This document shows positions 1,337 through 21,064 of a DNA stretch of 64,000 nt, piece by piece. The DNA comes from Bradyrhizobium zhanjiangense. GTDB taxonomy: Bacteria; Pseudomonadota; Alphaproteobacteria; Rhizobiales; Xanthobacteraceae. How positions within the stretch are numbered: the first letter of the stretch is position 1; every line of letters begins with the position of its first letter. Both the position numbers and the translations under genes were made by a program. A model generated the notes under the pieces. That model searched no databases and had not been told where the DNA came from. It was given only the letters and a program-made list of their open reading frames with translations. The stretch is from the NCBI RefSeq assembly GCF_004114935.1, contig NZ_CP022221.1, forward strand, positions 8,143,001 to 8,207,000, written 5' to 3'.

Positions 1337-3298
1337 TCAACTCCCGCCGGTCAATGAACGTTCCCGCGTCGCGGCCTTCAAAGCCGCGAGATCGACCTTG
1401 GAGGCGATCTTGTCGAGTGTAACAGGAAGCCGCTGGCGCCAGTTCGGATGCTCGTCGATCGTGCCGGGGATGTTGGGCTGATCGATCACGCCGAGCAGAT
1501 CCTCCAGCGACACCGCGAGCAGCCGCGACGGCGTGCGCGACAGGAAGGCGAGTACGGAATAGAGATCGTTGGCGTTGATGCCGTTCTGGCGCAAAATCTC
1601 GTCGAGCCTGCCGAGCGCGTCCCAGCGCGCCTGCTCGCTTTCGCCGGGATCGATCCCGAGCGAAAGCTTCATCTTGAGGTCGCTGAAGGAGCGCCAGCCG
1701 GCATAGGTCGACAGGTCGTGCGTATTCAGCGTGACGAGTGCGTTGGGCCGGTAGTGGTCGACATTGCGGAAGTGGCCGGCATCGTCGCGCTCGAACATCA
1801 TGACGAGGTAGGACCAGATGCCGAAATCCTGCATGGTCTCGCGGAAGCCTTCCGGCACGGTGCCGAGGTCCTCGCCGATCACGATGCATTTATGAGCCGC
1901 ACTCTCGCACGCCACCGCCGCCAGCAGCGCCTCGAACGGCATCTGCACATAGGCACCGTTGTCGGGCTTGAAACCGCGCGGCACCAGATAAAGTCGCTTC
2001 AAGCCAAGCACGTGATCGAGCCTGATGGCACCTGCATGGCGCATCGAGGCCGCGAGCATGTCGGCGAACGGCACGAAGGATTGGGCCTCCAGGCCGCCGG
2101 CGTTGAAGCCGGCGAGGCCCCAGTCCTGGCCGACGGTATTGAGCACATCGGGCGGCGCGCCGACGGCGAGATGGCGCGAAATCGCCATCTGCTCGTTCCA
2201 GGCATCGAAGCCGTTGGATTGCACGCCGACGGCAACGTCGAGATAGAGCCCGACCGGCATGCCGAGCTGGCTGGCCAGCTCCTTGGCCGCATGCAACTGG
2301 CTGTCAGCCGTCCATTGCACGAATTCGACGAACTCGACATCGCGCTTGTCGGACCCATTGCGCAGCGCAGCGCATGTCGCATCGTCGGGCTTTTGCCATT
2401 CCACCGGCCATTCCCACCATGGCGCGGTGAAACGATGGCGCAGCACTTCGAAGCAGGCAAAGCGGGACAACAGCGGACCGCGGGCGGCGCGGAAGGCGTC
2501 AAACTCCCGGCGGCGTGCTTCGCTCGCGCTCGTCACGAAACTGTTGAAGGCAGCGCGCAGGCCCAGCCATTTCAACGCCGCCATGTCCGCGTATGGCACA
2601 CGATCGCCCTCGCGCAGCCGTGCTGCGGTCGCGGCGGCATCCGGCACGAGGTCGGGCGCAAATTCCGGGATCGCCGCGACGTCGATATAGAGCGGATTGA
2701 GAAACAGCCGGCTGTTCGGCGAATAGGGGCTGCAATCGGCGGGGTGGTCATCGAACAGCACATGCAACGGATTGAGCCCAACGCCGTCGGCCCCCAATTG
2801 CTTGGCGAGCCGGACGAGATCGGCCAGGTCCGTGAAGTCACCGATACCCCAATTGCGGTTGGAGCGGACGCTGTAGAGCTGCACGGCAAGCAACCAGCCG
2901 CGGTCGAAATCGCCGCCGAAGGCGCGCTCGGGCGCCACGATCATCGGCACCTCTTCCGTCACACCTTCGGCATCGGTCAGCGTCAAACGGTGATAGCCGA
3001 GCGGCAGACCGGCCGGCCAGGCGATCACTGGCTCGCGCGTCTCGCCTTGCGCAATCGATTTGCCGTTTGCGGCCAATTTCCATTGCAGCGGTGGCGCACC
3101 GATGGCCGCCAATTCAGTCCGCGGATGCCCCAAGGCGCGCACCACCACCGGCCCGCCAACGAAGCGGTAAACCCGCTTCTCGGGCAGGGCGTCGAGGATG
3201 GATTTGAGGGCCACGGGGTCGGTGACCCGCAGCTTACCCAGGGCATCGATGAATTCGGACTGGACGCCCTTGATCCGGGCTTGAGTTATGAGATCCAT
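1337..3298 (-). CDS. malQ: 4-alpha-glucanotransferase (amylomaltase, GH77)
   Basis: A cytoplasmic 653-residue enzyme that transfers maltodextrin segments between alpha-1,4-glucans and releases glucose. GH77 landmarks are visible: RNWGIGDFTDLADLV near residue 150, a nucleophile-region motif IRLDHVLGLKRLY, the acid/base-region motif VIGEDLGTVPEGF, and LNTHDLSTYAGW with the third catalytic aspartate. An N-terminal region of about 130 residues precedes the barrel, as in long proteobacterial MalQ. It is divergent from the glgE-like operon, with 203 bp between starts, and upstream of the GH15 gene in the same direction. Together they suggest recycling of linear glucans left by debranching. Length and motifs look intact. 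Confidence 0.93.
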   Translation of the reverse strand: MDLITQARIKGVQSEFIDALGKLRVTDPVALKSILDALPEKRVYRFVGGPVVVRALGHPRTELAAIGAPPLQWKLAANGKSIAQGETREPVIAWPAGLPLGYHRLTLTDAEGVTEEVPMIVAPERAFGGDFDRGWLLAVQLYSVRSNRNWGIGDFTDLADLVRLAKQLGADGVGLNPLHVLFDDHPADCSPYSPNSRLFLNPLYIDVAAIPEFAPDLVPDAAATAARLREGDRVPYADMAALKWLGLRAAFNSFVTSASEARRREFDAFRAARGPLLSRFACFEVLRHRFTAPWWEWPVEWQKPDDATCAALRNGSDKRDVEFVEFVQWTADSQLHAAKELASQLGMPVGLYLDVAVGVQSNGFDAWNEQMAISRHLAVGAPPDVLNTVGQDWGLAGFNAGGLEAQSFVPFADMLAASMRHAGAIRLDHVLGLKRLYLVPRGFKPDNGAYVQMPFEALLAAVACESAAHKCIVIGEDLGTVPEGFRETMQDFGIWSYLVMMFERDDAGHFRNVDHYRPNALVTLNTHDLSTYAGWRSFSDLKMKLSLGIDPGESEQARWDALGRLDEILRQNGINANDLYSVLAFLSRTPSRLLAVSLEDLLGVIDQPNIPGTIDEHPNWRQRLPVTLDKIASKVDLAALKAATRERSLTGGS

Positions 3299-3501: not shown

Positions 3502-5448
3502 GTGAACAAGACAATTCAAACTGTCGAAAGTGCCGCAGCCGGCAGCGCTTTCCTCATCGAAGACGTCTATCCCTTGATCGATGGCGGCCGCTTCGCCGTG
3601 AAGCGGATCGCGGGCGACCGGGTCGAGGTCTGGGCCGACATCTATCGCGATGGCGATGCCGTGATCGGCGCCGCGCTGCTGTGGCGCCGCGAGCAGGACC
3701 GCGAATGGCAGCGTGAGCCGATGAGCCATCATGGCAATGACCGCTGGTCGGGCGCCTTCGTCCCGACCACGGCCGGTCAATACATCTACGCCATCGAAGC
3801 CTGGACCGACGAGTTCGCCACCTGGTCCCACGGCGTCGCGCGCAAACAACGCGCCGGTGCGGACGTCACTCTCGACGCGATCGAGGGCGCCGGCCTCTTG
3901 ACCAAGGCGCATGGCGCACGGCAAGACGCAGCAGTGGTCATCATCAGGCAATGCGAGGACTATCTGCAGAGCGGCGAGGTCGGCCCGCTGCTCGCAACCG
4001 AGCTCGGCGAAGCCATGGCCGAGAGCCAGTCGCGGCCCGACCTCACTCGCTCGGCCCTCTTTCCGCTGATCATCGACCGCGACAAGGCGCGCTTTGGCGC
4101 CTGGTACCAGATGATGCCGCGCAGCCAGAGCCGGATCCCCGGCCAGCACGGCACGCTTCGCGACTGCATCGCCCGCGTACCCGACATCGCCGCGATGGGT
4201 TTTGACGTGCTCTACTTCACGCCGATCCACCCGATCGGCCACACCCGCCGCAAGGGCCGCAACAATGCGCAGGTGGCGAGTGCAGGCGATCCCGGCTCGC
4301 CCTATGCGATCGGGACGATGGAAGGCGGCCACGATGCGCTGCATCCCGAACTCGGCACGATCGAGGATTTCCGCGCATTGGTTGCGACCTGCCTGGAATA
4401 CGGCCTCGAGCTCGCGCTCGACTTCGCCGTGCAATGCTCGCCGGACCATCCCTGGCTGACGCAGCATCCGGAATGGTTCAAGTGGCGGCCGGATCGCTCG
4501 GTACGGACGGCGGATGGCCCCTATTCGGACATCGTCATCCCAGATTTCAACTCCGTAGACAGGCCTGGACTGTGGAACGCGTTTCGTGATGCCATGCTGT
4601 TGTGGATCGACCATGGCGTGACCATCTTCGCCATCGACAATCACGACACCGCGCCGCTTCCGTTCTGGGAATGGCTGATCCGCGACATCCGCCGCCGCCA
4701 TCCCGAGGTGATCCTGTTCTCCAAGACCTTTGCGCGGCCGAAGCTGATGAAGGGCCTCGCCAAGCTCGGCTTTGCGCAGTCCTTCACCCATTTCCCCTGG
4801 CGCACCTCGCGGTGGGAGCTGGAGCAATATCTCGGCGAGCTGACGCGCTATCCCGAACGCGACTTCTATCGACCGAACCTGTTCGTCAACACAGCGGACC
4901 TGCTGCCCTATCACCTCCAGAGCGGCGAAGCATGGGCGTTCAAGTCGCGCCTCGCGCTGGCCGCGACGCTGTCGGGCAATTACGGCATCTTTGGCGGATT
5001 CGAGCTCTTGGAGCACGAGGCGATTCCCGGCCGTGAAGAATATCTGGATTCCGAAAAATACCAGATCAAGCAGCGCGACTGGGACAGGCCCGGCAACATC
5101 AAGCCCTACATCACCGCGCTCAATCGTGTCCGCAACGAGAATGCGGCGCTCCGGCAGACGGCCAATTTGCGCTTCCTCGGCGTCGAGGATGGCGAATCCA
5201 TTGCCTTCGCCAAGGAGGCAGCCGAGCCCGCCAACACCGTCATCGTCGTGATCGCGCTGTCGCGCCATGTGCGCGAATTCTGGCTGCCGCTCGGTGACGT
5301 CACCGTTGACGTCGGCGGGCAGCGACAACATGTGACGGCACTCGAAAACCTCCTCACCGGCGAACAGTCCCGCATCGAATGGGGCGGGGTCAGGCTGCGT
5401 ATCGATCCCGAGCGCGATCCGGCGCTCTTGTTCCGCGGCCTGGCGTAA
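3502..5448 (+). CDS. GlgE-like GH13 protein (maltose-1-phosphate maltosyltransferase homologue) with altered active site
   Basis: A 648-residue homologue of GlgE, which extends alpha-1,4-glucan using maltose 1-phosphate. The family N-terminal domain is present ([25 protein letters not shown]), as are the GH13 barrel motifs [26 protein letters not shown] and [14 protein letters not shown]. The putative nucleophile D379 is kept in [17 protein letters not shown]. Three things are wrong for a working GlgE. The residue 29 positions after the nucleophile, Glu acid/base in characterised enzymes (D394/E423 in Streptomyces), is Lys408 (LFSKTFARP). The conserved Arg two before the nucleophile is Ala377. 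The ENPPKKY phosphate-binding loop is shortened to ADGPY near residues 337-341. The frame is intact and leads the operon. The start is GTG; a nearby upstream ATG meets a stop after four codons. Databases would likely label it glgE; activity is doubtful. Confidence 0.88.
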
Positions 5449-5459
5449 GGGTTCATGCC

Positions 5460-8400
5460 ATGAATGTTCTGTCTTCCGTCGACACCAAGAAAGCCGAGGC
5501 TGCCGAGATCGTGGACGAGCTCTGGTACAAGGACGCCATCATCTACCAGCTCCACGTCAAGGCGTTTGCCGACAGCAACAATGACGGCATCGGCGACTTC
5601 GCCGGGCTGACGGAGAAGCTGCCCTATCTCCAGGAACTCGGCGTCACCGCGCTGTGGCTGCTGCCGTTCTACCCCTCGCCTGGCCGCGACGACGGTTACG
5701 ACATCGCCGATTACGGCGCGGTCAATCCCGATTTCGGGACGATGAAGGATTTCAAGCGCTTCATCCAGGAGGCGCAGAAGCGGGGCCTGCGCGTCATCAC
5801 CGAGCTGGTCGTCAATCACACCTCGGACCAGCACAAATGGTTCAAGCGCGCGCGCCGCAGCCATCCGGGCTCGAGCGCCCGCAACTGGTATGTCTGGAGC
5901 GACACCGATCAGAAATACCAGGGCACGCGCATCATCTTCACCGACACGGAGAAGTCGAACTGGACCTGGGACCCCGAGGCCGGCGCGTTCTACTGGCACC
6001 GCTTCTTCTCGCACCAGCCGGACCTCAATTTCGACAATCCGCGCGTGGTGAGCGCGCTCATCCAGGTGATGAAGCGCTGGCTCGATGCCGGTGTCGACGG
6101 CTTCCGGTTGGATGCCATTCCCTATCTGTGCGAGCGCGAGGGCACCTCGAACGAGAACCTGCCCGAGACGCATGCGATCATCAAGCGCTTGCGCCAGGAG
6201 CTCGACGCCTACTCCAAGGGCAAGCTGCTGCTGGCCGAGGCCAATCAATGGCCGGAGGACGTGCAGGAATATTTCGGCCGTGGCGACGAGTGCCACATGG
6301 CCTATCATTTCCCGCTGATGCCGCGGATCTACATGGCGATCGCGCAGGAGGACCGTTTCCCGATCACCGACATCCTGCGCCAGACCCCGGACATTCCGGC
6401 GAGCTGCCAATGGGCGCTGTTCCTGCGCAACCATGACGAATTGACGCTGGAGATGGTCACCGACGTCGAGCGCGACTATCTCTGGACCACCTACGCCAAC
6501 GACCCACGCGCGCGCATCAATGTCGGCATCCGCCGGCGCCTTGCGCCGCTGATGGACAATGACCGCCGCAAGATCGAGCTGATGAACTCGCTGCTGCTGT
6601 CCTTCCCCGGCACGCCGATCGTCTATTACGGCGACGAGATTGGCATGGGCGACAACATCTATCTCGGCGACCGCAACGGCGTGCGCACGCCGATGCAGTG
6701 GAGCCCGGACCGCAACGGCGGCTTCTCACGCTGCGACCCGGCCCGCCTCTACGCGCCGCTGATCATGGACCCGGTCTACGGCTACGAGTCGGTGAACGTG
6801 GAGGCGCAGTCGCGCAGCCTGTCCTCGCTGCTCAGCGCCACCAAGCGGCTGATCTCGGTGCGCAAGTCGACGCTTGCCTTCGGCCGCGGCACCATGACCT
6901 TCATCCGCCCGGCCAACCGCGCCGTGCTGGCTTACGTCCGGCAATATCGCGACGAGGTGATCCTCTGCGTCGCCAATTTGTCGCGCGCCGCGCAGGCGAC
7001 CGAGCTTGACCTGTCGCCTTGGAAGGACCGCATCCCGCAGGAAATGCTCGGCCGCACGCGCTTCCCCGCGATCGGCGAGCTGCCCTACATGATCACGCTG
7101 GGGCCCTACGGCTTCTACTGGTTCCAGCTTCAGGAGCGCGACAAGTCCGAGCCGGTGACGCCGCGCGCGGTGCCGGAGTTCGAGACGCTGGTGGTGCCGG
7201 TGAACTCGAACTGGGTGTCGCTCGCCCGCGAGCGCGGCGTGTTCGAGCGCGACGTGCTGCCGGGATTCCTGTCGCGGACGCGATGGTATCCCGAGCACAA
7301 TGCCAAGCACATCAAGACCACGCTGACCTCGGCGGCGCCGTTCTGCGACATCGGCGACAACCGGCCCTGGATCGCGTTCTTCGAGACCAAGCAGGGGAAC
7401 GAGACGACACGCTACGTGCTGCCGTTGCAGATCGAGTGGGTGCGCTTCGATCGCGAACGCTTCAACCCGAAGGCGCTCGCCGCAGTGCGTCAGGGCGCGC
7501 GCGAAGGCACGCTGCTCGATGTCGCGACCGAGCAGATCTTCATCGGCCTGTTCCTGCGCAATTTGTCGCAGAACCTGGCAGTGGAAGAGAACAATCTGCG
7601 GCTGGAATTCAAGGCGACCAGCCGGTTTGCCGATTACATCATCAAGGAACCCGAACGCATCCGCGCGATCGAGCAGTCGAACAGCACCGCGCTGATCGAC
7701 AATCAATACGTCGCCAAGATCTATCGTCGGCTCGAAAGCGGCATCAGTCCCGAGATCGAGATCGGCCACTATCTCACAGAGGTCGCCCGCTTTGCCAACA
7801 CGCCGGCCCTGCTGGGTAGCGTCGAGCTGGTCGAGGGCGAGCAGCGCAGCGCGCTCGGCGTGCTGCATGCCTATGTCGAGAACCAGGGCGACGGCTGGAC
7901 TGTGACCACGGGCTATCTCGATCGCTATATCGACGAGCAGCGCGTATTGCCGGCGGGCGAAACGCTCCGCGAAACCCAGGAGCAGGCGCCTTATCTGCAC
8001 TTCATCGCGCAGATCGGCCGGCGGCTCGGCGAGCTGCATGTCGCGCTGGCCGCGGCAAAGCCGGACGAGCTCGCTCCGGAGCCGATCGGCTCCTCGTACA
8101 TCACGCGCCTCGTCTCCGACCTCAAGGCGCGCGCCGAGCGGGTCTTCGAACGGCTGGCCGACAGCCGCGACGGCCTGCGGGAGGCGGACCGGCCGCTGAT
8201 CGATCAGCTCACGGAGGCGCGCGCGACCCTGCCCGACCGGCTGAATGCGCTATTGCCTTCCGGGATCGGCGGGTTGAACATCCGTCATCATGGCGACTTC
8301 CGTCTCGGGCAAACTCTGATCGTGAAGGACGATATCTTCATCATCGACTTCGACGGCGATCCGCGTGTGCCATTGGCCGACAAGCGGCGCAAGGCGCCGG

Positions 8401-8753
8401 CCGCGCGCGACGTCGCGGGCCTGATCCACTCGATTGATGTTTCGGTCAACGCGGCCCTCAGTCGCGCGCTCACGGGCGCTTCCGATGAGCAGGGCCGGCT
8501 CGCGGCTGCGCTCGACGAATGGCGCGAGCGCGCTACCGCAACCTTCTTGTCCGCCTATCGCGAAACCATGACCGATCGGCGGCTGTGGCCGCAAGATCCG
8601 CAGTCCGCGGACGGCCTGATAAGTTTCTTCCTGCTTGATCAAGCGTTCAACGAAGTAGAGTACGAGCTGTCCCACCGGCCTGAGGGGCTCAATGCGCCGC
8701 TGACCGGACTGCTTCGCATTCTGTCCAGTGCCGAGAGCGAAGCCCATGCCTAA
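5460..8753 (+). CDS. treS: Trehalose synthase fused to maltokinase (TreS-Mak)
   Basis: A 1097-residue two-domain cytoplasmic protein. Residues 1 to about 550 are a GH13 trehalose synthase interconverting trehalose and maltose: [15 protein letters not shown] at the start, nucleophile D218 in [11 protein letters not shown], acid/base E260 in [12 protein letters not shown], third Asp D326 in [11 protein letters not shown]. Residues from about 600 to the end resemble maltokinase (Pep2/Mak), which makes maltose 1-phosphate. They include the catalytic loop [10 protein letters not shown] (D946) and the metal-binding stretch [21 protein letters not shown] 5460 is preferred because it follows the glgE-like stop by 11 nt and gives the family N-terminus. 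It overlaps glgB by 8 nt. Mak normally feeds GlgE, so its pairing with a GlgE lacking key residues is puzzling. Confidence 0.93.
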
Positions 8754-10884
8754 ACTGCCCGCTGAGGCCTACGCGATCATCGAAGGCCGCCACTCCGATC
8801 CCTTCCACTATCTCGGGCTGCATCCCGAGGGCGGTAGAAGCGTGGTGCGCGCCTTTCTCCCCGAAGCCTCCAATGTCGAGGCGGTCGGCGAGCATGGCGA
8901 AGTCGCCCCGCTCGACCGTGTGCACGATTCCGGCTTGTTCATCGGGGCCCTGCCCAACGGCTCGAAGCATTACCAGTTGCGCGCAAAGTTCGGCGGCAAC
9001 GTCGTCGAGTTCGAGGACGCCTACCGCTTTCCGCCGATCCTGACCGATTTCGACCTTTATCTGCTCGGCGAAGGCACCCACCAGCGCCTCTACGACAAGC
9101 TCGGCGCCCATCCGATGCGGCACGAAGGTGTCGACGGTATCGGCTTCGTGGTGCTGGCGCCGAATGCGCGGCGGGTGTCCGTGGTCGGCGATTTCAATTT
9201 CTGGGACGGGCGACGCCATCCCATGCGGGTACGCGGCAGCGGCTATTGGGAGCTGTTCATCCCGCATGCGAAGATTGGCGATCACTACAAGTTCGAAGTC
9301 ATAGGCCCGCATGGCCATATGCTTCCGTTGAAATCCGATCCGCTGGCCTTTGCGAGCGAGGTGCGGCCCAAGACAGCGTCGATCGTGTTCGACGAGGCGC
9401 GTCTGCCGCGGCCGCGGCCGGCGCCCGACGGCATCAACGCGCTGTCGGCGCCGATGTCGATCTACGAGGTCCATCTCGGCTCGTGGCGGCGCAAGAACGG
9501 CAATGAATGGCTGACCTATCGCGAACTGGCCGAGCAGCTGCCGGCCTATGCCCGCGACATGGGCTTCACCCATCTCGAATTCCTCCCGGTGAGCGAGCAT
9601 CCGTTCGACGGCTCCTGGGGCTACCAGCCGACCGGCCTCTATGCCCCGACCAGCCGCTTCGGCACGCCGGAGGATTTTGCCGTTCTCGTCGATGCCTGCC
9701 ACCGCGAAGGCGTCGGCGTGCTGCTCGACTGGGTGCCCGGCCACTTCCCGGACGATCCGCACGGGCTAGGTCATTTCGACGGTACCTCGCTCTACGAGCA
9801 CGCCAACCCGCTCCAGGGGCGCCACCTCGACTGGGGCACGCTGATCTACAATTACGGCCGCACCGAAGTGACGAACTTCCTGGTGTCGAACGCGCTGTTC
9901 TGGCTGGAGCGCTACGCGATCGACGGCCTGCGCGTCGATGCCGTGGCATCGATGCTCTATCTCGATTACAGCCGGCCGCCCGGCGCGTGGATTCCGAACC
10001 AGTATGGCGGGCGGGAGAACATCGAGGCGATCAACTTCCTGCGCCGTTTCAACACGGAAGTCTTCGCCCGTTTCCCGCAGGCGACCACGGCGGCCGAGGA
10101 GTCCACCGCCTGGCCTCAGGTCTCACGCCCGGTCGAATTCGGCGGGCTCGGCTTTGGCTACAAGTGGAACATGGGCTGGATGCACGACACGCTGAGCTAC
10201 ATCAGCAAGGATCCGATCTACCGCAAGCACCACCACGGCGAGATCCTGTTCGGCCTGCACTACGCGTTCTCGGAAAACTTCATCCTGCCGCTGTCGCATG
10301 ACGAGGTCGTGCACGGCAAGCGCTCGATCCTCGGCCGGATGCCTGGCGACGAGTGGCAGCGCTTCGCGAACTTGCGCGCCTATTACAGCTTCATGTTCGG
10401 CCATCCCGGCAAGAAGCTGTTGTTCATGGGCGCGGAGATCGCGCAGAGCCGCGAATGGAACCATGACCAGTCGCTCGACTGGCACCTGCTCGAATACAAG
10501 TACCACTCCGGCATCCAGGCGCTGATCCGCGACCTCAACCGGCTCTATCGCGCGGTGCCGGCGCTGCACCAGATGGATTGCGACCAGGCCGGCTTCGAAT
10601 GGCTGGTCACCGACGACGCCAACCGCAACGTGTTCGCCTGGCTGCGCAGGGGCTTCGACGAGCAAGCGCGGTGCCTGGTGATCGTCAACTTCTCGCCGAA
10701 CGTCTACCAGAACTATCGCGTTCGCGTGCCCTTTGGCGGCAAGTGGAAGGAAGTGCTCAACTCGGATTCCGCCCACTATGGCGGCAGCAACGTCGGCAAC
10801 ATCGGCGAAGTCCATGCCGAGGGCGGCGAGCTCCGCCTCACCATTCCGCCACTTGCCGCGATCTTCCTCGTTCCGGAAAGCTGA
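8746..10884 (+). CDS. glgB: 1,4-alpha-glucan branching enzyme
   Basis: A 712-residue GH13 enzyme that forms alpha-1,6 branches in glycogen-like glucan. The N-terminal part has the [10 protein letters not shown] start and a CBM48-type module ([17 protein letters not shown]). The barrel carries D398 in [15 protein letters not shown], the Glu pair at 451-452 in AEESTAWP, and [10 protein letters not shown] for the third acid. The ATG at 8746 overlaps the treS stop by 8 nt, which suggests translational coupling. A GTG six codons earlier is possible but less likely. Length and motifs are normal for rhizobial GlgB. Its partners are TreS-Mak upstream and GlgX downstream. Confidence 0.95.
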
Positions 10885-10887
10885 CAC

Positions 10888-12966
10888 ATGCGCTTGACTG
10901 CTGGATCGCCCGCACGCCTCGGCGCAAGCTGGGACGGACGCGGCACCAATTTCGCGCTGTTCTCCGCCAACGCGCAGAAGGTCGAGCTCTGCCTGTTCGA
11001 CACGCAAGGCCGCCGCGAGCTCGAACGCATCGAATTGCCGGAGAGGACCGAGGACGTCTGGCACGGCTATCTCAACGACGTCTCGCCCGGCCAGCTCTAC
11101 GGCTATCGTGTGCACGGCCCCTACGAGCCCGAGCACGGCCACCGCTTCAACGCCAACAAGCTGCTACTCGATCCCTATGCCAAGCGGCTGGCCGGACGGC
11201 TGGTCTGGAGCGATGCGCATTTCGCCTACCGCACCGGCTCGCCGCGCGAGGACCTGTCGTTCGACCGGCGCGACAATGCGCGCGGCATGCCGAAGGCCGT
11301 CGTCGTCGACGAGACCTTCAACTGGGGCCGGCGCGAGATCCGTCCCAACATCCCCTGGGAAGACACCATCATCTACGAGGCCCACGTCAAGGGCCTGACG
11401 CAGAAGCGCGACGACGTGCCGCCGAATCTGCGCGGCACCTATGGTGGCCTGTCATCGCCGGCGATGATCGAGCATCTGAAGAGGCTCGGCGTCACCACGA
11501 TCGAGCTTCTCCCGATCCACAGCTTCGTCGACGACCGCATCCTGGTGGAGAAGAAGCTCGCCAATTACTGGGGTTACAACACGTTGTCCTTCTTCGCGCC
11601 CGAGCCGCGCTACGCCCAGGACAACGCGCTGGATTCCTTCCGCACCACGGTCGCGCGGCTGCACGATGCCGGCATCGAGGTGATGCTGGACGTTGTCTAC
11701 AACCACACCGCCGAGGGCAATCACCTCGGCCCGACGCTGTGCTATCGCGGCATCGACAACGCCTCCTACTACTGGCTGAACCGCGAGAACCCGCGCTATT
11801 ACGACGATTTCACCGGTTGCGGCTCGTCGGTGAACCTCACCCATCCGCGCGTGCTCCAGATGGTGATGGATTCGCTTCGCTACTGGGTCGAGGTCTGCCA
11901 TGTCGACGGCTTCCGTTTTGACCTCGCCACCACGCTGGCGCGCGGCCCGAACGGCTTTGATCGCGGCATCTCGTTCCTGACTGCCGTCCGGCAGGATCCG
12001 GTGCTGGCGACCGTCAAGCTCGTCGCCGAACCGTGGGATCTCGGGCTCGGCGGCTATCAGGTCGGCGCCTTCCCCTCGCAATGGTCGGAGTGGAACGATC
12101 GCTATCGCAGCGCCATGCGCCGCTACTGGAGCGGCGAAGGCAGCCTGATCGGCGACATCTCCAGCCGCATGACGGCGTCATCAGACCTGTTCAACCATGA
12201 CGGAAGGCGGCCGCGCGCTGGCATCAACCACATCACCGTGCATGACGGCTTCACGCTCGCCGACCTCTTCAGCTACAACGAGAAGCACAACGAGGCCAAC
12301 GGCGAGGACAATCGCGACGGCTCCAACGACAACCACAGCAACAATTGCGGCGTCGAGGGCCCGACCGACGATCCCCAAATCCTCGGCCTGCGTCGGCAGC
12401 TTCGCAAGAACGTGCTGGCCTGCCTGATGCTGGCGCAAGGCGTTCCGCTGATCCTCGCCGGCGACGAGGTCGGCAATTCCCAATCCGGCAACAACAACGC
12501 CTATTGCCAGGACAACGAGATCGGCTGGGTCGGCTGGGACAATCTCGGCAAGGAGGGCGACGACATGGTCGATTTCGTCGCCCACCTCGCCGACATCCGC
12601 CGCCGGTTCTCGCAACTCCGCAGCCATCGCTGGCTCGACGGCCGCACCAAGGACGGCATCTCCTACGGCGCGCTGTGGCTGACGCCCGCCGGGGACGAGA
12701 TGACGGAGAACGACTGGAAATTCCCGGAAGGGCGGTTTCTCTCCTATGTGATGGGGCCGATGGAACCGGGCAGCGCCGCGATCTTTATCGTTCTGAACGC
12801 CGCTCCCGAAGAGATCGCATTCAAATTGCCCAAAATGACCGAATACAAGAGCTGGCAGCAGATCCTCAACACGACCGAGGCCAGGCTGAACTCGATCGAC
12901 TTCCTGCCCGGAAGCGACAGCAAGGCGCCGCCGCGATCCGTGCTCGCCTTCGCGGGGGCGCTATGA
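10888..12966 (+). CDS. glgX: Glycogen debranching enzyme
   Basis: A 692-residue GH13 isoamylase-type enzyme that cleaves alpha-1,6 branches of phosphorylase-limit glycogen, releasing short maltodextrins. Evidence is the N-terminal CBM48-type region (GTNFALFSANAQKVELCLFD), YEAHVKGLTQKRDDVPP, the nucleophile motif VDGFRFDLATTLAR, acid motif VAEPWDLGLGGYQVG, and the GlgX signature HDGFTLADLFSYNEKHNEAN. It begins 3 nt after the glgB stop, and its TGA overlaps the treZ ATG (ATGA). Released maltodextrins are natural substrates for TreY/TreZ and for MalQ, both encoded beside it. Confidence 0.95.
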   Translation: MRLTAGSPARLGASWDGRGTNFALFSANAQKVELCLFDTQGRRELERIELPERTEDVWHGYLNDVSPGQLYGYRVHGPYEPEHGHRFNANKLLLDPYAKRLAGRLVWSDAHFAYRTGSPREDLSFDRRDNARGMPKAVVVDETFNWGRREIRPNIPWEDTIIYEAHVKGLTQKRDDVPPNLRGTYGGLSSPAMIEHLKRLGVTTIELLPIHSFVDDRILVEKKLANYWGYNTLSFFAPEPRYAQDNALDSFRTTVARLHDAGIEVMLDVVYNHTAEGNHLGPTLCYRGIDNASYYWLNRENPRYYDDFTGCGSSVNLTHPRVLQMVMDSLRYWVEVCHVDGFRFDLATTLARGPNGFDRGISFLTAVRQDPVLATVKLVAEPWDLGLGGYQVGAFPSQWSEWNDRYRSAMRRYWSGEGSLIGDISSRMTASSDLFNHDGRRPRAGINHITVHDGFTLADLFSYNEKHNEANGEDNRDGSNDNHSNNCGVEGPTDDPQILGLRRQLRKNVLACLMLAQGVPLILAGDEVGNSQSGNNNAYCQDNEIGWVGWDNLGKEGDDMVDFVAHLADIRRRFSQLRSHRWLDGRTKDGISYGALWLTPAGDEMTENDWKFPEGRFLSYVMGPMEPGSAAIFIVLNAAPEEIAFKLPKMTEYKSWQQILNTTEARLNSIDFLPGSDSKAPPRSVLAFAGAL

Positions 12967-14717
12967 GGCCATCCTTCGGGGCGAGGCCGACCAAGGACGG
13001 CGCGTCGTTCCGGCTGTGGGCGCCCGGCGCGCGCCGCGTCGATCTCCTGCTCGACAGAAGGCACGCGATGCAGCGCCGGCAGGATGGCTGGTACGTGGCC
13101 GACATTGCCGGCCTGCGCGCCGGTAGCAATTACAAATTCCGGATCGACGACGAGATCGACGTGCCCGATCCCGCCTCGGCATTCCAGCCCGAGGATGTGT
13201 TCGGCCCGAGCGAGGTGATCGATCACGACGCCTTTGTGTGGCGCGCGCGCGATTGGCGCGGCCGTCCCTGGGAAGAGACGGTGCTGATCGAGACCCATGT
13301 CGGCACCTTCACGCCAGAGGGCACCTACCGCGCCATGATCGACAAGCTCGATCATCTCACAGCGAGCGGCATCACCGCACTGGAATTGATGCCGTTGGCC
13401 GATTTCGCCGGCCGCCGCGGCTGGGGCTATGACGGCGTGCTGTGGTATGCGCCCGACAGCGCCTATGGCCGCCCTGAAGATCTGAAGGCGCTGATCGACG
13501 AGGCGCATTTGCGCGGGCTCATGGTGTTCCTCGACGTCGTCTACAATCATTTCGGCCCCGAGGGGAATTACCTCGGCCGCTATGCGCCGACCTTCTTTAC
13601 CGACGCGCACACGCCATGGGGCAGCACAATCGATTATCGCGTGCCGCAGGTGCGCGCGTTCGCGGTCGAGAACGCGCTGTGCTGGCTCAGCGACTACCGC
13701 TTCGATGGCCTCAGGCTCGACGCCGCCAATCACATCATGGCTGTCCCGGGCGAGCAGTCCATGCTGCAGGACCTCAGCGTTGCCGCCGGCGAGCTCGCCA
13801 AGGCCACGGGACGCCACATCCACCTCGTGCTGGAGAACGGCGACAACCGCGCCAGCCTGCTCGACGCTGCGCAGGACCCGCCGAACGGCAAATATCGCGG
13901 CCAATGGAACGACGATTATCATCACGTCTGGCACGTGATGCTGACCGGCGAGCATGCCGGCTATTATGGCGATTACCAGACGCCGCGCATGGATCTTGCG
14001 CGCGCGCTCGCCTCCGGCTTCGTCTACCAGGGCGAGATCTCGGAATTCTGGGGCAAGAAGCCGCGCGGCGAGCCGAGCGGCGAGCTGCCGCCGGCGACCT
14101 TCGTCAACTTTCTCCAGAACCACGACCAGATCGGCAACCGCCCGCTCGGCGACCGGCTCGAGAGCCTGGCATCGCCAAAACAGATCGAGGCCGCGCTCGC
14201 GGTCACCCTGCTCGCGCCGATGGTGCCGATGCTGTTTCAGGGCGAGGAATGGGGCTCCACGGTGCCCTTCCCATTCTTCTGCGACTTCCACGACGGATTG
14301 GCCGATGCCGTGCGCAAGGGGCGCAAGCAGGAATATGCCTGGGCCTATGAGAAATACGGCGATGAGGTGCCTGATCCGCTCGATCCGGCAACGCTGCAAT
14401 TGGCCGTGCTCGACTGGAACGGCCGCACGCCCGAGCAGGACGCGCGGCTTGCGCTGGTGCGCGAGCTGCTCGCGCTCCGGCGCAAGGAGATCATGCCGCG
14501 GCTGAAAGGAGCGAGGTTCGGCGATGCCGAGGCAGCAGATACCGGCTTGCTCACGGCACATTGGCGCATGGGGGACGGCGCGACGCTCCGCCTGACCGCG
14601 AATCTCTCGGACAAGGATGTCGCGTATTCCAACAGCAATGCGGGCACGCCGATCTGGGGCGGCGAGGCCGGCGAGCGGCTTCCGCCCTGGTCGGTGGTTT
14701 GGCATCTCGGAGGTTAG
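12963..14717 (+). CDS. treZ: Malto-oligosyltrehalose trehalohydrolase
   Basis: A 584-residue GH13 enzyme that releases trehalose from maltooligosyltrehalose made by TreY. Motifs include FRLWAPGARRVDLLLD in the N-terminal domain, IETHVGTFTPEGTY, ELMPLADFAGRRGWGYDG, nucleophile region DGLRLDAANHI, acid region LVLENGDNRASLL, and FLQNHDQIGNRPLGDR. ATG 12963 overlaps the glgX stop in an ATGA arrangement, and the protein from this start has the normal family length. Longer reading from further upstream is not homologous. treY follows after one base. Confidence 0.94.
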   Translation: MRPSFGARPTKDGASFRLWAPGARRVDLLLDRRHAMQRRQDGWYVADIAGLRAGSNYKFRIDDEIDVPDPASAFQPEDVFGPSEVIDHDAFVWRARDWRGRPWEETVLIETHVGTFTPEGTYRAMIDKLDHLTASGITALELMPLADFAGRRGWGYDGVLWYAPDSAYGRPEDLKALIDEAHLRGLMVFLDVVYNHFGPEGNYLGRYAPTFFTDAHTPWGSTIDYRVPQVRAFAVENALCWLSDYRFDGLRLDAANHIMAVPGEQSMLQDLSVAAGELAKATGRHIHLVLENGDNRASLLDAAQDPPNGKYRGQWNDDYHHVWHVMLTGEHAGYYGDYQTPRMDLARALASGFVYQGEISEFWGKKPRGEPSGELPPATFVNFLQNHDQIGNRPLGDRLESLASPKQIEAALAVTLLAPMVPMLFQGEEWGSTVPFPFFCDFHDGLADAVRKGRKQEYAWAYEKYGDEVPDPLDPATLQLAVLDWNGRTPEQDARLALVRELLALRRKEIMPRLKGARFGDAEAADTGLLTAHWRMGDGATLRLTANLSDKDVAYSNSNAGTPIWGGEAGERLPPWSVVWHLGG

Positions 14718-14718
14718 C

Positions 14719-17502
14719 ATGCCTCCCGCCATTCCGCTCGCGACTTACAGGCTCCAGCTCACCGCGGATTTCGATTTCGACAAGGCCGCCGCGGTCGTGC
14801 CCTATCTCAAGGCGCTGGGGATCACGCATCTCTATGCCTCGCCGGTGATGAAGGCGCGCAAGGGCTCGACCCACGGCTACGACACCGTCGATCACAGCCA
14901 GCTCAGTCCCGAACTCGGCGGCGAGGCCGGCTTCGCACGGCTGAGCGAGACGCTTCAGCAGCACGATCTCGGCCTCATCATCGACTTCGTGCCCAATCAT
15001 GTCGGCGTGCATTTCGCCGACAATCCCTGGTGGCTCGACGTGCTGGAGTGGGGCCAGGCTTCACCGCATGCGGTCTCCTTCGACATCGACTGGGATCAAC
15101 TGGCCTTCCGCGCCCGCGGCGGCGTGCTGCTGCCGATTCTCGGCGTGTCCTATGGCGAGGCGCTGGAGCGGGGCGAGATCGAGCTGCGCTACGATCCGGA
15201 TGAGGGAAGTCTTTCCGCCTGGTATTTCGAGCATCGCTTACCTGTCGCGCCGGAGCGCTATGGCGAAGTGCTGCGGATGATCGTCAAGGAAGCGGACGCG
15301 GCAGAAACGGAGCCCGGCAAGCGCCTGCTCGCGCTCGCGGCGCGCTACACCGGACTGCGCCGTCCCAACCGCAAGGAAGCTCCCACCTTTAAGGCAGAAC
15401 TCAAGGGCATTGCGGGTGCTGCCGACATCATCGCGCGAGGTCTTGCCGCCTATCGCGCCGCCAAAGACCGTCCCGCGCACACGCTGGCGCTGCATCATCT
15501 GCTCGAGCGCCAGCACTACAAGCTCGGGCATTGGCGGCTCGCCTCCAGTGACATCAACTATCGCCGCTTCTTCGACGTCAACGGCCTTGCGGGCTTGCGC
15601 GTCGAGGATCCCGGCACGTTTGCCGCCACGCATCGGCTGGTCAAGCAACTCATCGCCGACGGCAGATTGCAAGGCATCCGCCTCGATCACATCGACGGCC
15701 TGCGCGATCCCGCGCAATATTGCCAGCGGCTGCGCCGGCTGGTTCGCGATGCACAGGGTACGACGAAGCCCTTTTATACCCTGATCGAGAAGATCCTGTG
15801 CGAGCACGAACGCCTGCCGCACTTCGCCGGCGTCCAGGGCACCACCGGCTATGAATGGATGAACGTCATCACCCAGGTCCTGGTCGACGGCAAGGGGCTG
15901 GCGGCGCTGGACGAGACCTGGCGGCAGATCAGCAACCGGCCGCCCCGGCTTGCGCCTTACGTCAAGGACGCCAAGCGGCGGGTGCTGGAGACGCTGCTGA
16001 CCAGCGAGTTCACCGTGCTGACGCGGCTTTTGGCGCGCATCGCCAACGGGCATTACTCGACGCGCGATTTCTCCGCCGACAGCCTGCGCCAGGCGCTCGA
16101 ACTCTATGTGCTGCATTTCCCGGTCTACCGCACCTACCTCACGACGAGCGCGCCGACCGCGCACGATCGCAAGCTGATCGAGGAGACCATCGCGCGGGCG
16201 CGCGCAGAATGGTTCGCCGCAGATGACGGCATTTTCGACTTCCTGCGCGACGCCCTGACCATGGACCTGCTCAAGCCCGGCCGTCCCCCGCACAGCGCCC
16301 CGCGCGTGCGCCGCTTCGCGCTGAAGGTGCAGCAATTCACCGGACCGATGATGGCGAAGTCGCTGGAGGACACCGCGTTCTATCAATTCCACCGGCTGCT
16401 CGCGCTGAACGAGGTCGGCGGCGATCCCGCGAGCATCGGCCTCACCCTTCCCGCTTTCCATCAGGCGATGCAGGCGCGCGCCAAGGAATGGCCGCACGGC
16501 ATGACCGCGACGGCCACCCACGACACCAAGCGCGGCGAGGATGCCCGCGCGCGTATTGCTGCGCTCAGCGAGATTCCCGGCGAATGGACCAGCGCGGTGG
16601 CGCGCTGGAAGGTGTTGAACGCGCCGCATCTCACACACCACGGCAGTTTCCGCGCGCCGTCGGCGACCTTCGAGTACATGCTCTACCAGACCCTGCTGGG
16701 GGCCTGGCCGCTCCAGGGACCGGATGCCGGCTTCATCGAGCGCATCCAGGCCTATGCCCTCAAGGCCGCGCGTGAAGGCAAGGAGGAGACGAGCTGGCTC
16801 AATCCGCACGAAGCGTATGAAAACGGCGTCAAGAGCTTCATCGGCAAGATCCTCGACCCCGCTCAGTCCGCAGAATTCCTGGAGGCGCTGCAGACCCTGG
16901 CCCGCCGCGTTGCACTGCTCGGCATGTTGAACTCGCTGAGCCAGCTCACGCTCAAGGCGACACTGCCGGGCGTGCCGGACTTCTACCAAGGCACCGAATT
17001 CTGGGACCTGTCGCTGGTCGACCCCGACAACCGTCGTCCTGTGGACTTTGTCGCCTGCCGTGCAGCGCTGAACTCACTGGACCAGCCGGATTGGCGTGGC
17101 CTGATCAAGGCCTGGCCGGACGGCCAGCTCAAGCTGGCCTGGACGCGTCATCTTCTCGAGCTGCGCAACCGGCTTCCCGACATCTTCGTGCGGGGCGACT
17201 ATCAGCCGCTCGAGGTGAGCGGCTTGCATGCTGACCACGTCATCGCCTTCGCCCGCCGCCACGGCCGCGCGGCCGCGATCGTCGTGGTCGGGCGTCACTT
17301 CGCGCCGTTCACGCAAGCGGGCCGGGAATGGCCCGCGCTGGAGGGCTTCGATGCCACCGTCGACATCACCGGCTATGCCGCGACGGATCTTGCGAGCAAC
17401 GAACTGCCGCTTGCGCAGGCTCTGCGCGATCTTCCCGCGACAATCATCGAGGCGCGCACCGCCAGTGCAGCAAAGCCGATACGGCAGCGCGTGCGCGCCT
17501 GA
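14719..17502 (+). CDS. treY: Malto-oligosyltrehalose synthase
   Basis: A 927-residue GH13 enzyme that converts the reducing end of maltodextrins into an alpha,alpha-1,1 trehalose linkage. It opens with IPLATYRLQLTADFDFD and continues with YASPVMKARKGSTHGYDTVD, LIIDFVPNHVGV, IRLDHIDGLRDPAQY (nucleophile region), and MTATATHDTKRGEDARAR late in the protein, all diagnostic of TreY. ATG 14719 lies one base after the treZ stop, with GGAGG in treZ's last codons as ribosome-binding site. It ends the operon, 2 bp from the convergent stop of the next gene. Confidence 0.94.
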   Translation: MPPAIPLATYRLQLTADFDFDKAAAVVPYLKALGITHLYASPVMKARKGSTHGYDTVDHSQLSPELGGEAGFARLSETLQQHDLGLIIDFVPNHVGVHFADNPWWLDVLEWGQASPHAVSFDIDWDQLAFRARGGVLLPILGVSYGEALERGEIELRYDPDEGSLSAWYFEHRLPVAPERYGEVLRMIVKEADAAETEPGKRLLALAARYTGLRRPNRKEAPTFKAELKGIAGAADIIARGLAAYRAAKDRPAHTLALHHLLERQHYKLGHWRLASSDINYRRFFDVNGLAGLRVEDPGTFAATHRLVKQLIADGRLQGIRLDHIDGLRDPAQYCQRLRRLVRDAQGTTKPFYTLIEKILCEHERLPHFAGVQGTTGYEWMNVITQVLVDGKGLAALDETWRQISNRPPRLAPYVKDAKRRVLETLLTSEFTVLTRLLARIANGHYSTRDFSADSLRQALELYVLHFPVYRTYLTTSAPTAHDRKLIEETIARARAEWFAADDGIFDFLRDALTMDLLKPGRPPHSAPRVRRFALKVQQFTGPMMAKSLEDTAFYQFHRLLALNEVGGDPASIGLTLPAFHQAMQARAKEWPHGMTATATHDTKRGEDARARIAALSEIPGEWTSAVARWKVLNAPHLTHHGSFRAPSATFEYMLYQTLLGAWPLQGPDAGFIERIQAYALKAAREGKEETSWLNPHEAYENGVKSFIGKILDPAQSAEFLEALQTLARRVALLGMLNSLSQLTLKATLPGVPDFYQGTEFWDLSLVDPDNRRPVDFVACRAALNSLDQPDWRGLIKAWPDGQLKLAWTRHLLELRNRLPDIFVRGDYQPLEVSGLHADHVIAFARRHGRAAAIVVVGRHFAPFTQAGREWPALEGFDATVDITGYAATDLASNELPLAQALRDLPATIIEARTASAAKPIRQRVRA

Positions 17503-18173: not shown

Positions 18174-18263
18174 GTAGGGTGGGTTAGCGAAGCGTAACCC
18201 ACCACGCTTCCTGCGAATATAGAACGAAGTTGGTGGGTTACGCCTTCGGCTAACCCATCCTAC
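18174..18263. repeat. Palindromic intergenic repeat (GTAGGGTGGGTTAGC family)
   Basis: A 90-bp element whose ends are near-perfect inverted copies (GTAGGGTGGGTTAGC and GCTAACCCATCCTAC). Each half is itself a hairpin: GGTGGGTT is followed by AACCCACC. It fills the gap between DUF3309 and ligD and supplies the ligD TAG stop codon (18260-18262). It probably folds in RNA from either strand and could end both transcripts. REP/BIME-like elements of this look are common in Bradyrhizobium intergenic DNA. Confidence 0.8.
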
Positions 18264-20947
18264 TTTTTCGACGCCAGCTTCTTCATGGCCGCCTTGATTG
18301 AGGCGGCGGCATCATCATAACCTTCCCACGCTTTCGATCGCGCCAGCAGGCCCGGCACGGTGCGCATCGTATAGCGCTTCGGATCGAGATCGCTCTTCAC
18401 CTGCGCCCAAGTCAGCGGCATCGACACCGTGGCACCGGCGCGCGCGCGCGGCGACAGCGGGGCAATCGCCGTCGACATACGGTCGTTGCGCAAATAGTCC
18501 AGGAAGATCTTTCCCTTGCGCAATTTCTTGGACATGTTGAGCAGATAGCGTTCGGGATCGTCATTGGCCATCCACTGGCAAACGCCTTGCGCAAACGCCT
18601 TGGCCTCCTTCCAGCTCACCTTGTCGCGCGCGCCGTGGAGCAGCGGCACCACCACATGGATGCCCTTGCCGCCAGTGGTCTTGCAGAAGCTGTCCATGCC
18701 GATATCGGCGAGCCGCTGCCGCATCTCCTTGGCCGCCTCGACGACGTCGGCGAAGTCGACGTCGGGCGCAGGGTCGAGATCGAACACCAGCCGTCCCGGC
18801 GTGTCATAGGCATAAGGCGCGCAATTCCATGGATGCAGCTCGACGCCGCCGACCTGCGCCACTGCAGCGAGCCCTTCGATCCGATCGATCTGCAGGTACG
18901 GCTTGCGGTCGCCGGAGACCCTTGCGAGCTCCAGAAGGTTCGACGTGCCCTGCATGGCATGGCGCTGAAAGAAGCATTCGCCCTTGATGCCGTCAGGAGC
19001 GCGGATCAGCGAGCAAGGCCGGCCCTTCAGGTGCACGATCATCCATTCGCCGACGGCTTCGAGATAGCGGGCAAGGTCCAGCTTGGTGACGGGATCGCCA
19101 TGTCCGTCGTCGGGCCAGAGCTCCTTGTCCGGCTTGGAGATGACGACGCCCATGACCTCGGCGTTGCTGCCGCTGGGGGCCGATCGCGCGCCTGGCTTCG
19201 CTTTTGCGCGCTTCACTCCTTTGGCTGAGGGTTTGGCGAGCTCGGTGTCGACTGGCGTTTCGGCCTCGACCTCCTCGGCAGGCTTGTCCTGCCGCAGGCC
19301 TTTGAAAGCTGCTTGGCGGACATTGCCGTCGGCGGTGAAGCCGGCGAACTCGATCTCGGCGACGAGCTCCGGCTTCAGCCAGTGCATCTCGCGGGTCTTC
19401 TTCGGCGCATTCTTGCCGCCGAAGGGACTTTCCTTGGTCGCCATGGCCTTCAACGACGGCATGATGCGCTTGACCTTGTCCGCGCCAAAGCCGGTGCCGA
19501 CCATGCCGACGAAGGCGAGATGATCGCCGCGCTGCACGCCGGCCATCAGTGAGCGGAACTTGCCATTCGTGGTCTTGTAGCCGCCGATCACCACCTCGTG
19601 GCCGGCGCGGCATTTCGACTTGACCCAGCTCTCGGTGCGGCCGGAACGATACGGGGCATCCAGCTTCTTCGATACCACCCCCTCGAGCTCGAGCTTGCAC
19701 GCCGATTGCAGCACGGCATCGCCCCCGCTCTCGAAATGCTCGACATATCGGATCTGGCTCGCCTTCCGCTTGCGCGATTCCAGGAGCTCCTTCAGCCGGG
19801 CCTTGCGTTCGCCGAGCGGCAGTCGGCGGTAATCCTGGTTCTCGGCGAACAGGAGGTCGAAGGCAAAGAAGATCAGCTCGTCGGTCTTGCCATCGGACAA
19901 CGCAGCCTGAAGCGAGGAGAAGTTCGGCGCGCCGTTGTGATCGAGCGCGACGATCTCGCCGTCGATCATCACGTCCGGCAGCACGCCCGCATCCTTGGCA
20001 ATGGAGGCGAACTTGCCGGTCCAGTCGAGGCCTTTGCGGGTCTTGAGCGTTGCTTCGCCGTCCTCGACCCGGAGCTGGACGCGATAGCCGTCGAACTTGA
20101 TCTCGTGACACCAGCCCCGGTCGGCCGGCGGCCGATCGACCAGCGTACAGAGCTGCGGCGCCACGAAATCCGGTATCTCTGAAACCTTCTTCGTGTTTGC
20201 TGCTGTCGTCGCCTTCTTCCTTGCCGTCGTTCCGGCCTTCAACGCCGTGCGCGGCGCCGGCTTCACCGTGCGCCCTTTCGCCTCCTCGGCGCGGTTGGAC
20301 TGCCAGACCGCATTGGCCTTGCCCTTGGGACCCCTAAGACCCTTGGCCAGCATGAAAGGTTTGGGCGCGCGGCCCTTCCCTTCGGCGATCTGCTCCATCG
20401 CGCGGCCGGAGGCGACGGACTTGTCCTGGTCGAGGATGTCGTTGTCGGCGCCTTCGCGGACATGTTCGTCGCGGTGCTTGATCAGCAGCCAGTTGGTCCG
20501 CTTTTCGCCGCCGCGGTTGCGCATGCGCACCAGCACCCAGCTTCCGTGCAGCTTGTCGCCATGCAGGGTGAATTTGAGATCGCCCTTCTTGAAGCCGGCT
20601 TCCGGATCTTCCGATTCCCAAGTGCCTCGATCCCACAGCATCACGGTGCCGCCGCCGTACTGCCCTTCTGGAATCGTACCTTCGAAATCACCATAGTCGA
20701 GCGGATGGTCCTCGACCTCGACCGCCAGCCGCTTGTCGCGCGGATCGAGCGAGGGCCCCTTCGTCACCGCCCAGGACTTGAAGACGCCGTCCAACTCGAG
20801 CCGGAAGTCGTAATGCAGCCGACTGGCATCATGCTTCTGGATCACGAAGCGCCGCTGCTTCGAGGGCGCGACAGGGGTCTTGCCTGATGGCTCGGGCGTC
20901 TTCTCGAAGTCACGCTTCTGTCGGTAAGTGGAGAGTTTTTGCAGCAC
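18260..20947 (-). CDS. ligD: ATP-dependent DNA ligase D (NHEJ)
   Basis: An 895-residue multidomain enzyme of bacterial non-homologous end joining. Domain order is 3'-phosphoesterase (residues about 20-180: [35 protein letters not shown]), ATP-dependent ligase (about 240-540, with K284 in EIKFDGYR as the adenylated lysine), and a C-terminal primase-polymerase (about 590-880: [20 protein letters not shown] carrying the metal-binding acids). The start is GTG at 20947; the protein from there opens as typical rhizobial LigD, and further upstream the frame only shadows the ku gene. It is divergent from ku. Its last codon lies inside a palindromic repeat. Confidence 0.93.
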
Positions 20948-21002
20948 GACTGGTCCCGCTTCTCTTTCGGCATTCAAGCCTATCACGGCGAAAGTCCCAC
21001 CC

Positions 21003-21035
21003 GGAACCAAAACCCCACGGAGGGGTTGGGGTTCC
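21003..21035. promoter_or_regulatory. Palindromic candidate bidirectional EcfG-type promoter between ligD and ku
   Basis: The 33 bp contain GGAACC at the left end and GGTTCC at the right end, with AACCCC and GGGGTT inside; 12 of 14 arm positions match. Read on either strand it gives GGAAC-N16-GGTT, one mismatch from the EcfG consensus in each direction. The right-hand edge is 29 bp from the ku ATG and the left edge 55 bp from the ligD GTG. Stress-sigma control of NHEJ genes is known in rhizobia. A dimeric repressor operator is an alternative. Confidence 0.4.
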
Positions 21036-21064
21036 AAAACGCCTTGAAAACGCTGGAGAATGGA

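Follow-up and report, generated by a model that had tools for sequence, protein, structure and literature searches.

The glgE locus and its operon

The window analysed here is a stretch of 64,000 nucleotides from Bradyrhizobium zhanjiangense (contig NZ_CP022221.1, positions 8,143,001 to 8,207,000). At positions 3502..5448 of its forward strand we identified a GlgE orthologue of 648 amino acids with an altered donor site, which starts with GTG and carries the N/S domain at residues 18–193. Pfam GlgE_dom_N_S (PF11896) scores 177.8 bits on this ORF (cut-off 25), and the closest solved structure by sequence is that of S. coelicolor GlgE1 (5vsj; phmmer E 7e-144). The alignment to 5vsj and the Pfam match bear out an earlier, sequence-only reading, which had called this ORF a GlgE homologue open over 648 codons. 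Its nearest relative in the named collection comes from B. genosp. SA-3 (97% protein identity), and its close relatives belong to Bradyrhizobium. The genome is closed (9.34 Mb), and its single contig of 9,342,022 bases contains one PF11896 match, a second, canonical glgE being absent. Among the matches listed, a full-length GlgE gene never occurs twice in a Bradyrhizobium genome, and the altered gene therefore replaces the canonical one in place.

The gene is followed on the same strand by the remainder of an operon with the order glgE, treS-mak, glgB, glgX, treZ, treY, and malQ (GH77; 1337..3298, reverse strand) is its divergent neighbour. The fused TreS–maltokinase gene spans 5460..8753; its ORF opens at 5379, and the likely ATG start at 5460, which is inferred, lies 11 bases past the glgE stop. 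The maltokinase (Mak) half corresponds to ORF residues 591–1124 (7149..8750). Next come genes for the branching enzyme GlgB (8728..10884) and the debranching enzyme GlgX (10888..12966), followed by treZ (12963..14717; the ORF opens at 12345, and the start is placed at the first Met of the homologous part, 12963) and the treY ORF (14617..17502). The same order is found in 11 of 14 other Bradyrhizobium stretches, including some with a canonical glgE (L164, L168 and L173); of the remaining three, L171 ends at a contig edge and L165 and L169 deviate. A malQ match adjoins glgE in 12 of the 14 stretches (none in L165 and L169; partial in L171). L165 and L169 (genomes G102 and G054) carry the glgE of a separate Bradyrhizobium lineage in which the usual operon is missing: there the ORF after glgE matches only the Mak half (about 40% identity), and a glgX-like ORF lies on the opposite strand. 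Downstream of the glucan operon, the window also encodes a LigD-type multidomain DNA ligase (ligase, phosphoesterase and primase-polymerase) at 18260–21937 on the reverse strand.

Residues replaced in GlgE

The alignment with S. coelicolor GlgE1 has no gaps from the nucleophile to the acid/base residue: the segment FRVDNPHTKP spans the nucleophile, and FLAEAFTRP pairs with FSKTFARP. D379 therefore corresponds to D394, A377 to R392 and K408 to E423. The nucleophile Asp379 is kept within the A-I-D stretch of codons 377–379 (4630..4638, forward strand, as are all the motifs described below), in which Ala377 replaces the GH13 Arg. Lys408 (4723..4725) stands in place of the acid/base Glu423, a residue whose catalytic role and loss of activity upon mutation are described in PMC5076824; the S. 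coelicolor E423A variant is catalytically compromised (PMC5076824). Close to the nucleophile, the H-D pair of codons 381–382 (4642..4647) replaces P396 (by H381) and His397 (by D382), the latter a residue of the +1 subsite (PMC5076824). These are two more fixed changes, beyond those that the sequence-only reading had listed.

Four residues, N352, K355, Y357 and N395, have been described as the phosphate ligands of GlgE (PMC4526890). Three of them belong to the ENPPKKY phosphate-binding loop, of which ADGPY (codons 337–341; 4510..4524) is the remnant. The multiple alignment shows a deletion of K355, G339 at the place of N352, and Y357 retained as Y341. The reduction of this loop had been proposed from the window alone, as had a kept D379 with Lys at the acid/base position and Ala at that of the GH13 Arg, and both assignments agree with the alignments.

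To place these replacements in the family, 191 distinct GlgE sequences were sorted by their identity to the window protein, not by motif. K408, H381 and D382 occur in 108/108 sequences of at least 75% identity and A377 in 107/108, the exception being one Thr, whereas E408 and R377 are present together in 83/83 sequences less than 73% identical. Of the 120 top-ranking database proteins, which include that of the window, 119 have Lys at the acid/base position. In 92 distinct sequences of this Lys type, the R392 position holds Ala in 91 and Thr in one, and that of His397 holds Asp in 92/92. Two of the four phosphate ligands are retained (Y357 in 91/92 and N395 in 92/92); neither Asn at 352 nor Lys at 355 is among the residues listed for these 92 sequences. 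No other Glu is newly fixed in the GlgE of this clade, and D382 is its sole newly fixed acidic residue.

Residues retained and predicted fold

The maltose-binding −2 subsite and the acceptor Trp are preserved. The acceptor-site residues Trp448 (92/92) and Arg449 (87/92), whose roles are described in PMC5076824, are retained as W-R at codons 433–434 (4798..4803). D480 is retained in 92/92 as Asp466 (4897..4899). Lys534 and Tyr535, with roles in the −2 subsite (PMC4526890), are present as K-Y at codons 519–520 (5056..5061). Across the 92 distinct Lys-type sequences the −2 subsite is kept as K264 in 92, N268 in 83, S279 in 87, D359 in 92, K534 in 92 and Y535 in 92, and Q324 is retained in 91/92. 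Counted by genome, Asp379 is present in 77/79 Lys-type genomes and Asp466 in 79/79, and K251, D343, W433, K519, Y520 and D466 do not vary across the 108 sequences of at least 75% identity. The AlphaFold2 model (pLDDT 86.5, pTM 0.84) shows the GlgE fold over the full length of the protein, with low confidence at about 461–480 and at 491–520, the segment that carries K519 and Y520.

Concerted changes in the maltokinase

The sequence-only reading had placed the gene at the head of an intact glucan operon. This description does not hold, as the neighbouring fusion gene is itself changed in its maltokinase half. Relative to M. vanbaalenii Mak, the window's copy has the substitutions H307R, E324D and E326D. 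Throughout the Lys clade position 307 is Arg (82/82) and position 324 is Asp (82/82), and position 326 is Asp in 68, Asn in 11, His in two and Gly in one. His307 belongs to the proposed maltose pocket, and a Glu326–Arg342 salt bridge lies at the bottom of this pocket (PMC4306142). The catalytic Asp305, the Mg ligands Gln310 and Asp322, and Lys149 are each kept in 82/82; Asp305, Gln310 and Asp322 have been described as the putative base and Mg ligands (PMC4306142). Based on these conserved residues, the Lys-clade Mak may still be a kinase. At the 171 loci with both genes, Lys408 is paired with Arg975 and Asp992 of Mak in 136/136 and Glu408 with His975 in 35/35.

We then compared the proteins of the operon at conserved sites, defined as positions with the same residue in at least 95% of the canonical genomes (67 available for GlgE, 35 for Mak, 15 for GlgB and 44 for TreS). 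The Lys clade has another majority residue at 22/180 such sites in GlgE, 14/149 in Mak, 11/418 in GlgB and 0/282 in TreS, and is fixed for a new residue at 12, six, zero and zero sites, respectively. As the groups had been labelled by GlgE residues, the GlgE comparison was repeated without the seven labelling positions, leaving 18/173 differing sites, nine of them fixed. Five of these nine lie in the beta4/beta5 segments, the strands around the nucleophile and the acid/base residue, which hold 10/173 sites (hypergeometric P 2e-5). The catalytic triad of TreS (R-x-D, E and N-H-D motifs) reads RDEHD, and is thus intact, in every genome with TreS read.

Distribution and phylogeny

The 196 loci of a first set and the window were compared at positions 377, 379, 408 and 466: the residues are A-D-K-D in 124 cases, T-A-K-D in one and the canonical R-D-E-D in 72. 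GlgE could be read in 114 of the 146 sampled Bradyrhizobium genomes. Among these, 76 have the Lys type, 14 a second altered type, 23 the canonical form, and G083 an odd one. No GlgE was read in the other 32, among them G078, whose gene is split between frames. Three further Lys-type genomes from the family sample bring the total to 79. The other genomes of the order with GlgE read were canonical (44/44). Recurrence of K408 and A377 across Rhizobiales, suggested earlier as a check, was thus not seen; among the sampled genomes the pair is limited to one clade of Bradyrhizobium, a genus of soil and root-nodule bacteria.

The Lys type forms a single, well-supported branch both in the tree of TreS DNA and in that of GlgE protein (SH-aLRT 99 and 100, respectively), each built with a thinned set of Lys-type genomes and the latter without the trait columns. 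In the GlgE tree the Lys type has as its sister L118 (99), a groundwater MAG whose site is canonical. In the listed Lys-type genomes other than G078 the gene is one uninterrupted frame (residues 1–647 or 1–648). In G078 a glgE of the Lys type by identity lies in two frames (C1:6696248-6698190), which reflects either a recent break or a sequencing error.

Losses in other lineages

The second altered clade, to which B. pachyrhizi, B. tropiciagri and B. jicamae belong among others, keeps R-D-E-D and has lost phosphate ligands, with N352 replaced by His, K355 by Gln and Y357 by Trp; a loop of this EHPPQRW kind is found at L163, L174 and L231-L241. Its Mak carries S136P (14/14), N137H (13/14) and E326G (14/14). 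In M. tuberculosis Mak, mutation of the equivalent Asn abolished activity and that of the Ser cut it drastically (PMC4306142). Since position 136 is Pro and position 137 mostly His, the maltokinase of this clade is probably dead, while its GlgE has R-D-E-D. The domain order in both altered clades is like that of the TreS-Pep2/Mak fusion of the GlgE pathway, with the TreS triad intact; they differ from it in the Mak half, the Lys clade by H307R, E324D and E326D/N and the second clade by S136P and N137H.

G083 (L175), whose placement differs between the TreS and GlgE trees, has K355E, Y357C, W448S and R449C in GlgE and S136R, Q310E and E326N in Mak, the latter set affecting the P-loop and Mg ligands. 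Judged from these residues, it is a third joint departure of GlgE and Mak. Among the 120 database proteins listed, we found E423G in P0134, P0137 and P0139, and D480E in P0132 and P0139. P0144, P0145 and P0185 are about 95% identical to canonical GlgE and nevertheless carry E423K, with R392 and H397 kept. The phosphate loop is kept in P0144 and P0145, whereas K355 and Y357 are also altered in P0185. The Lys of these three proteins is a separate case of this replacement. Within the Lys type itself, Asp394 (Asp379) has been lost to A, V or G in the genomes G008 and G026 and in the proteins P0064 and P0112.

Purifying selection on the altered gene

Pairwise dN/dS of glgE was computed from pairs that are not independent. 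It came to 0.133 for canonical Bradyrhizobium (168 pairs from 19 genomes), 0.165 for the Lys clade (1637 pairs from 58 genomes) and 0.168 for the second altered clade (81 pairs from 14 genomes). The dN of GlgE relative to that of TreS was 5.05 in the Lys clade versus 2.18 in canonical Bradyrhizobium. Across the 79 genomes, 395/648 GlgE sites are at least 95% conserved. The Lys-type glgE is under weaker yet clear purifying selection, in agreement with the original impression that the gene is not in recent decay.

Association with glgC

An alternative route to glycogen uses ADP-glucose through GlgC and GlgA. We found glgC matches (E 1e-60 or better) in 103/146 Bradyrhizobium genomes; 102 pass the family cut-off, and the match below it is a partial one in G055, a Lys-type genome. 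In the genome of the window glgC adjoins glgA (L247 8535-11377, about 306 kb before the window). Among the genomes with GlgE read, glgC is matched in 91/91 altered and 4/23 canonical ones (Fisher P 4e-18), a P value that overstates the association because the tree needs only three changes each in glgC and in GlgE state; an independent-pairs test yields just one or two pairs. In the 32 genomes where no GlgE was read, glgC is matched in eight and not in the other 24. The presence of glgA alone is uninformative (at least one match in 144/146 genomes). The canonical genomes with glgC are G051, G054, G091 and G139. In the TreS tree the last of these is the sister of the second altered clade (support 93, not starred), a position that would fit acquisition of glgC first.

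An exchange between the GlgC–GlgA and GlgE routes has likewise been described in Chlamydiae (PMC11046441). There, Criblamydiaceae and Waddliaceae lost GlgC and have a GlgE pathway described as functional, whereas in the altered Bradyrhizobium genomes glgC is present and GlgE changed.

A probable non-catalytic role for the Lys-type GlgE

Based on these results, we propose that the GlgE orthologue was converted in place, that its use of maltose 1-phosphate was probably lost, and that it has been retained as a non-catalytic alpha-glucan-binding or scaffold protein; we regard this as the probable explanation. We infer loss of maltosyltransferase activity and a scaffold role beside TreS, GlgB, GlgX, TreZ and TreY, and the retained −2 subsite and acceptor groove would probably bind alpha-1,4-glucan. 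A lineage with GlgC and GlgA could build alpha-glucan from ADP-glucose, and the maltose-1-phosphate step would therefore be dispensable. This step would then be disabled in the kinase and the transferase together, because a kinase without a consumer would accumulate maltose 1-phosphate. Such accumulation has been reported for a P. aeruginosa glgE mutant (PMC8084333), and in mycobacteria that lose the transferase maltose 1-phosphate builds up and is toxic (PMC5076824). TreS would still convert trehalose to maltose, which MalQ could consume, and the leftover GlgE, with its maltose/glucan surface, would act as a non-catalytic partner. In B. diazoefficiens treS is under the general stress response, and its mutant was reported to contain more trehalose and less maltose (PMC8092242), which is consistent with TreS running towards maltose.

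Several observations stand against this explanation. The catalytic residues kept in Mak, the few independent events behind the glgC association, the four canonical genomes that match glgC and the low model confidence around K519 and Y520 all weaken it. The strongest objection comes from GlgE itself: Asp379 and Asp466 are near-invariant, and a purely non-catalytic protein would not need them; the invariance of H381, D382 and K408 exceeds what relaxed drift would be expected to leave. The near or full invariance of these five GlgE residues leaves some limited room for new chemistry. According to this explanation, which we consider rather unlikely, Asp379 as nucleophile and Asp466 as stabiliser would work in a site rebuilt around Lys408, His381 and Asp382. 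The donor would be something else than maltose 1-phosphate, perhaps a glucan, and the altered maltokinase would act on another sugar. There is a small chance that a site with K408 and the new His–Asp pair carries out a reaction new to GH13, on glucan or on the product of the altered maltokinase. If so, GlgE and Mak would form an uncharacterised two-enzyme branch of the Bradyrhizobium glycogen–trehalose network. Besides the fixed residues, the largely intact −2 subsite and the low dN/dS of GlgE fit such a function, as does a Mak in which D305, Q310, D322 and K149 are kept and the maltose-pocket His307 is Arg throughout. However, the general acid has no replacement save D382 at another position, the nucleophile is gone in the four cases named above with the gene still open, and the second altered clade and G083 lose maltose-1-phosphate residues without the Lys-type signature. 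The evidence leans towards a non-catalytic protein because related lineages lose the acid/base residue, the nucleophile or the stabiliser in different ways; as read from these sequences, such dispersed losses speak for the removal of catalysis more than for one new chemistry.

Slow decay, in which glgE would be a pseudogene in progress, kept open only since treS-mak shares its message 11 bases downstream, is in our judgement unlikely. The inferred treS start so close to the glgE stop, the rise of GlgE dN relative to TreS, the E423G or E423K proteins of other lineages and the two-frame gene of G078, of the Lys type by identity and by its Mak, all speak for it. Against it stand a dN/dS far under 1, the extent of the conserved sites, the residues invariant in 108 sequences and the uninterrupted frame in the listed Lys-type genomes other than G078.

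It is very improbable that the protein is still a maltose-1-phosphate maltosyltransferase in which Lys408 has taken over phosphate binding from K355. The nucleophile, Y357, N395, D480 and the −2 subsite are kept, but the acid/base residue, R392, K355 and N352 are all missing, and replacement of the first alone compromised the S. coelicolor enzyme (PMC5076824). The maltokinase that would supply the donor is moreover altered at its proposed maltose pocket (PMC4306142). A sensor whose pocket would bind, but not turn over, maltose or a phosphorylated sugar and signal to TreS-Mak or GlgB seems least probable of all: the largely intact maltose-binding −2 subsite, the invariant Lys that replaced the acid/base residue and the co-change with maltokinase would suit it, but by sequence it is inseparable from a scaffold.

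Relation to known enzymes

Characterised GlgE, as from S. coelicolor (GlgE1) and M. tuberculosis, is an alpha-1,4-glucan:maltose-1-phosphate maltosyltransferase of family GH13_3 (EC 2.4.99.16), which builds storage glucan from maltose phosphate. The window protein departs from it at the acid/base Glu, at the GH13 Arg and at His397, K355 and N352, each of which is either replaced or absent. Close analogues of the proposed role are plant non-catalytic homologues of starch enzymes, such as the isoamylase ISA2 and the beta-amylases BAM4 and BAM9. These share the arrangement of a glucan-enzyme fold without catalytic residues beside active enzymes, but belong to different families. Among the open-licence PMC papers listed in our searches, judged by title and opening of the abstract, we found no bacterial GlgE counterpart of such pseudoenzymes, no report of a Bradyrhizobium GlgE with replaced catalytic residues and no paper on GlgE as a pseudoenzyme. 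What we describe here is a GlgE subfamily that resembles pseudoenzymes and comes with a maltokinase altered alongside it. The single branch, the fixed replacements and the purifying selection support the suggestion, already made from the window alone, of a previously undescribed and long-conserved GlgE-like subfamily that would be either non-catalytic or doing something new.

A kinase and the transferase that should use its product have changed together in at least two clades, and the conserved sites of the TreS domain on the same polypeptide as the kinase are unchanged in the Lys clade and almost unchanged in the second altered clade. The genomes offer a natural series, from canonical GlgE through loss of the phosphate loop and full catalytic replacement to loss of the nucleophile, suited to the study of a glucan-binding pseudoenzyme role in bacterial glycogen metabolism. 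Many of these proteins bear the database name maltose-1-phosphate maltosyltransferase or starch synthase; the strains concerned include some filed under B. japonicum, B. sacchari and B. pachyrhizi. A metabolic model of any such strain would therefore contain a reaction that the strain probably lacks.
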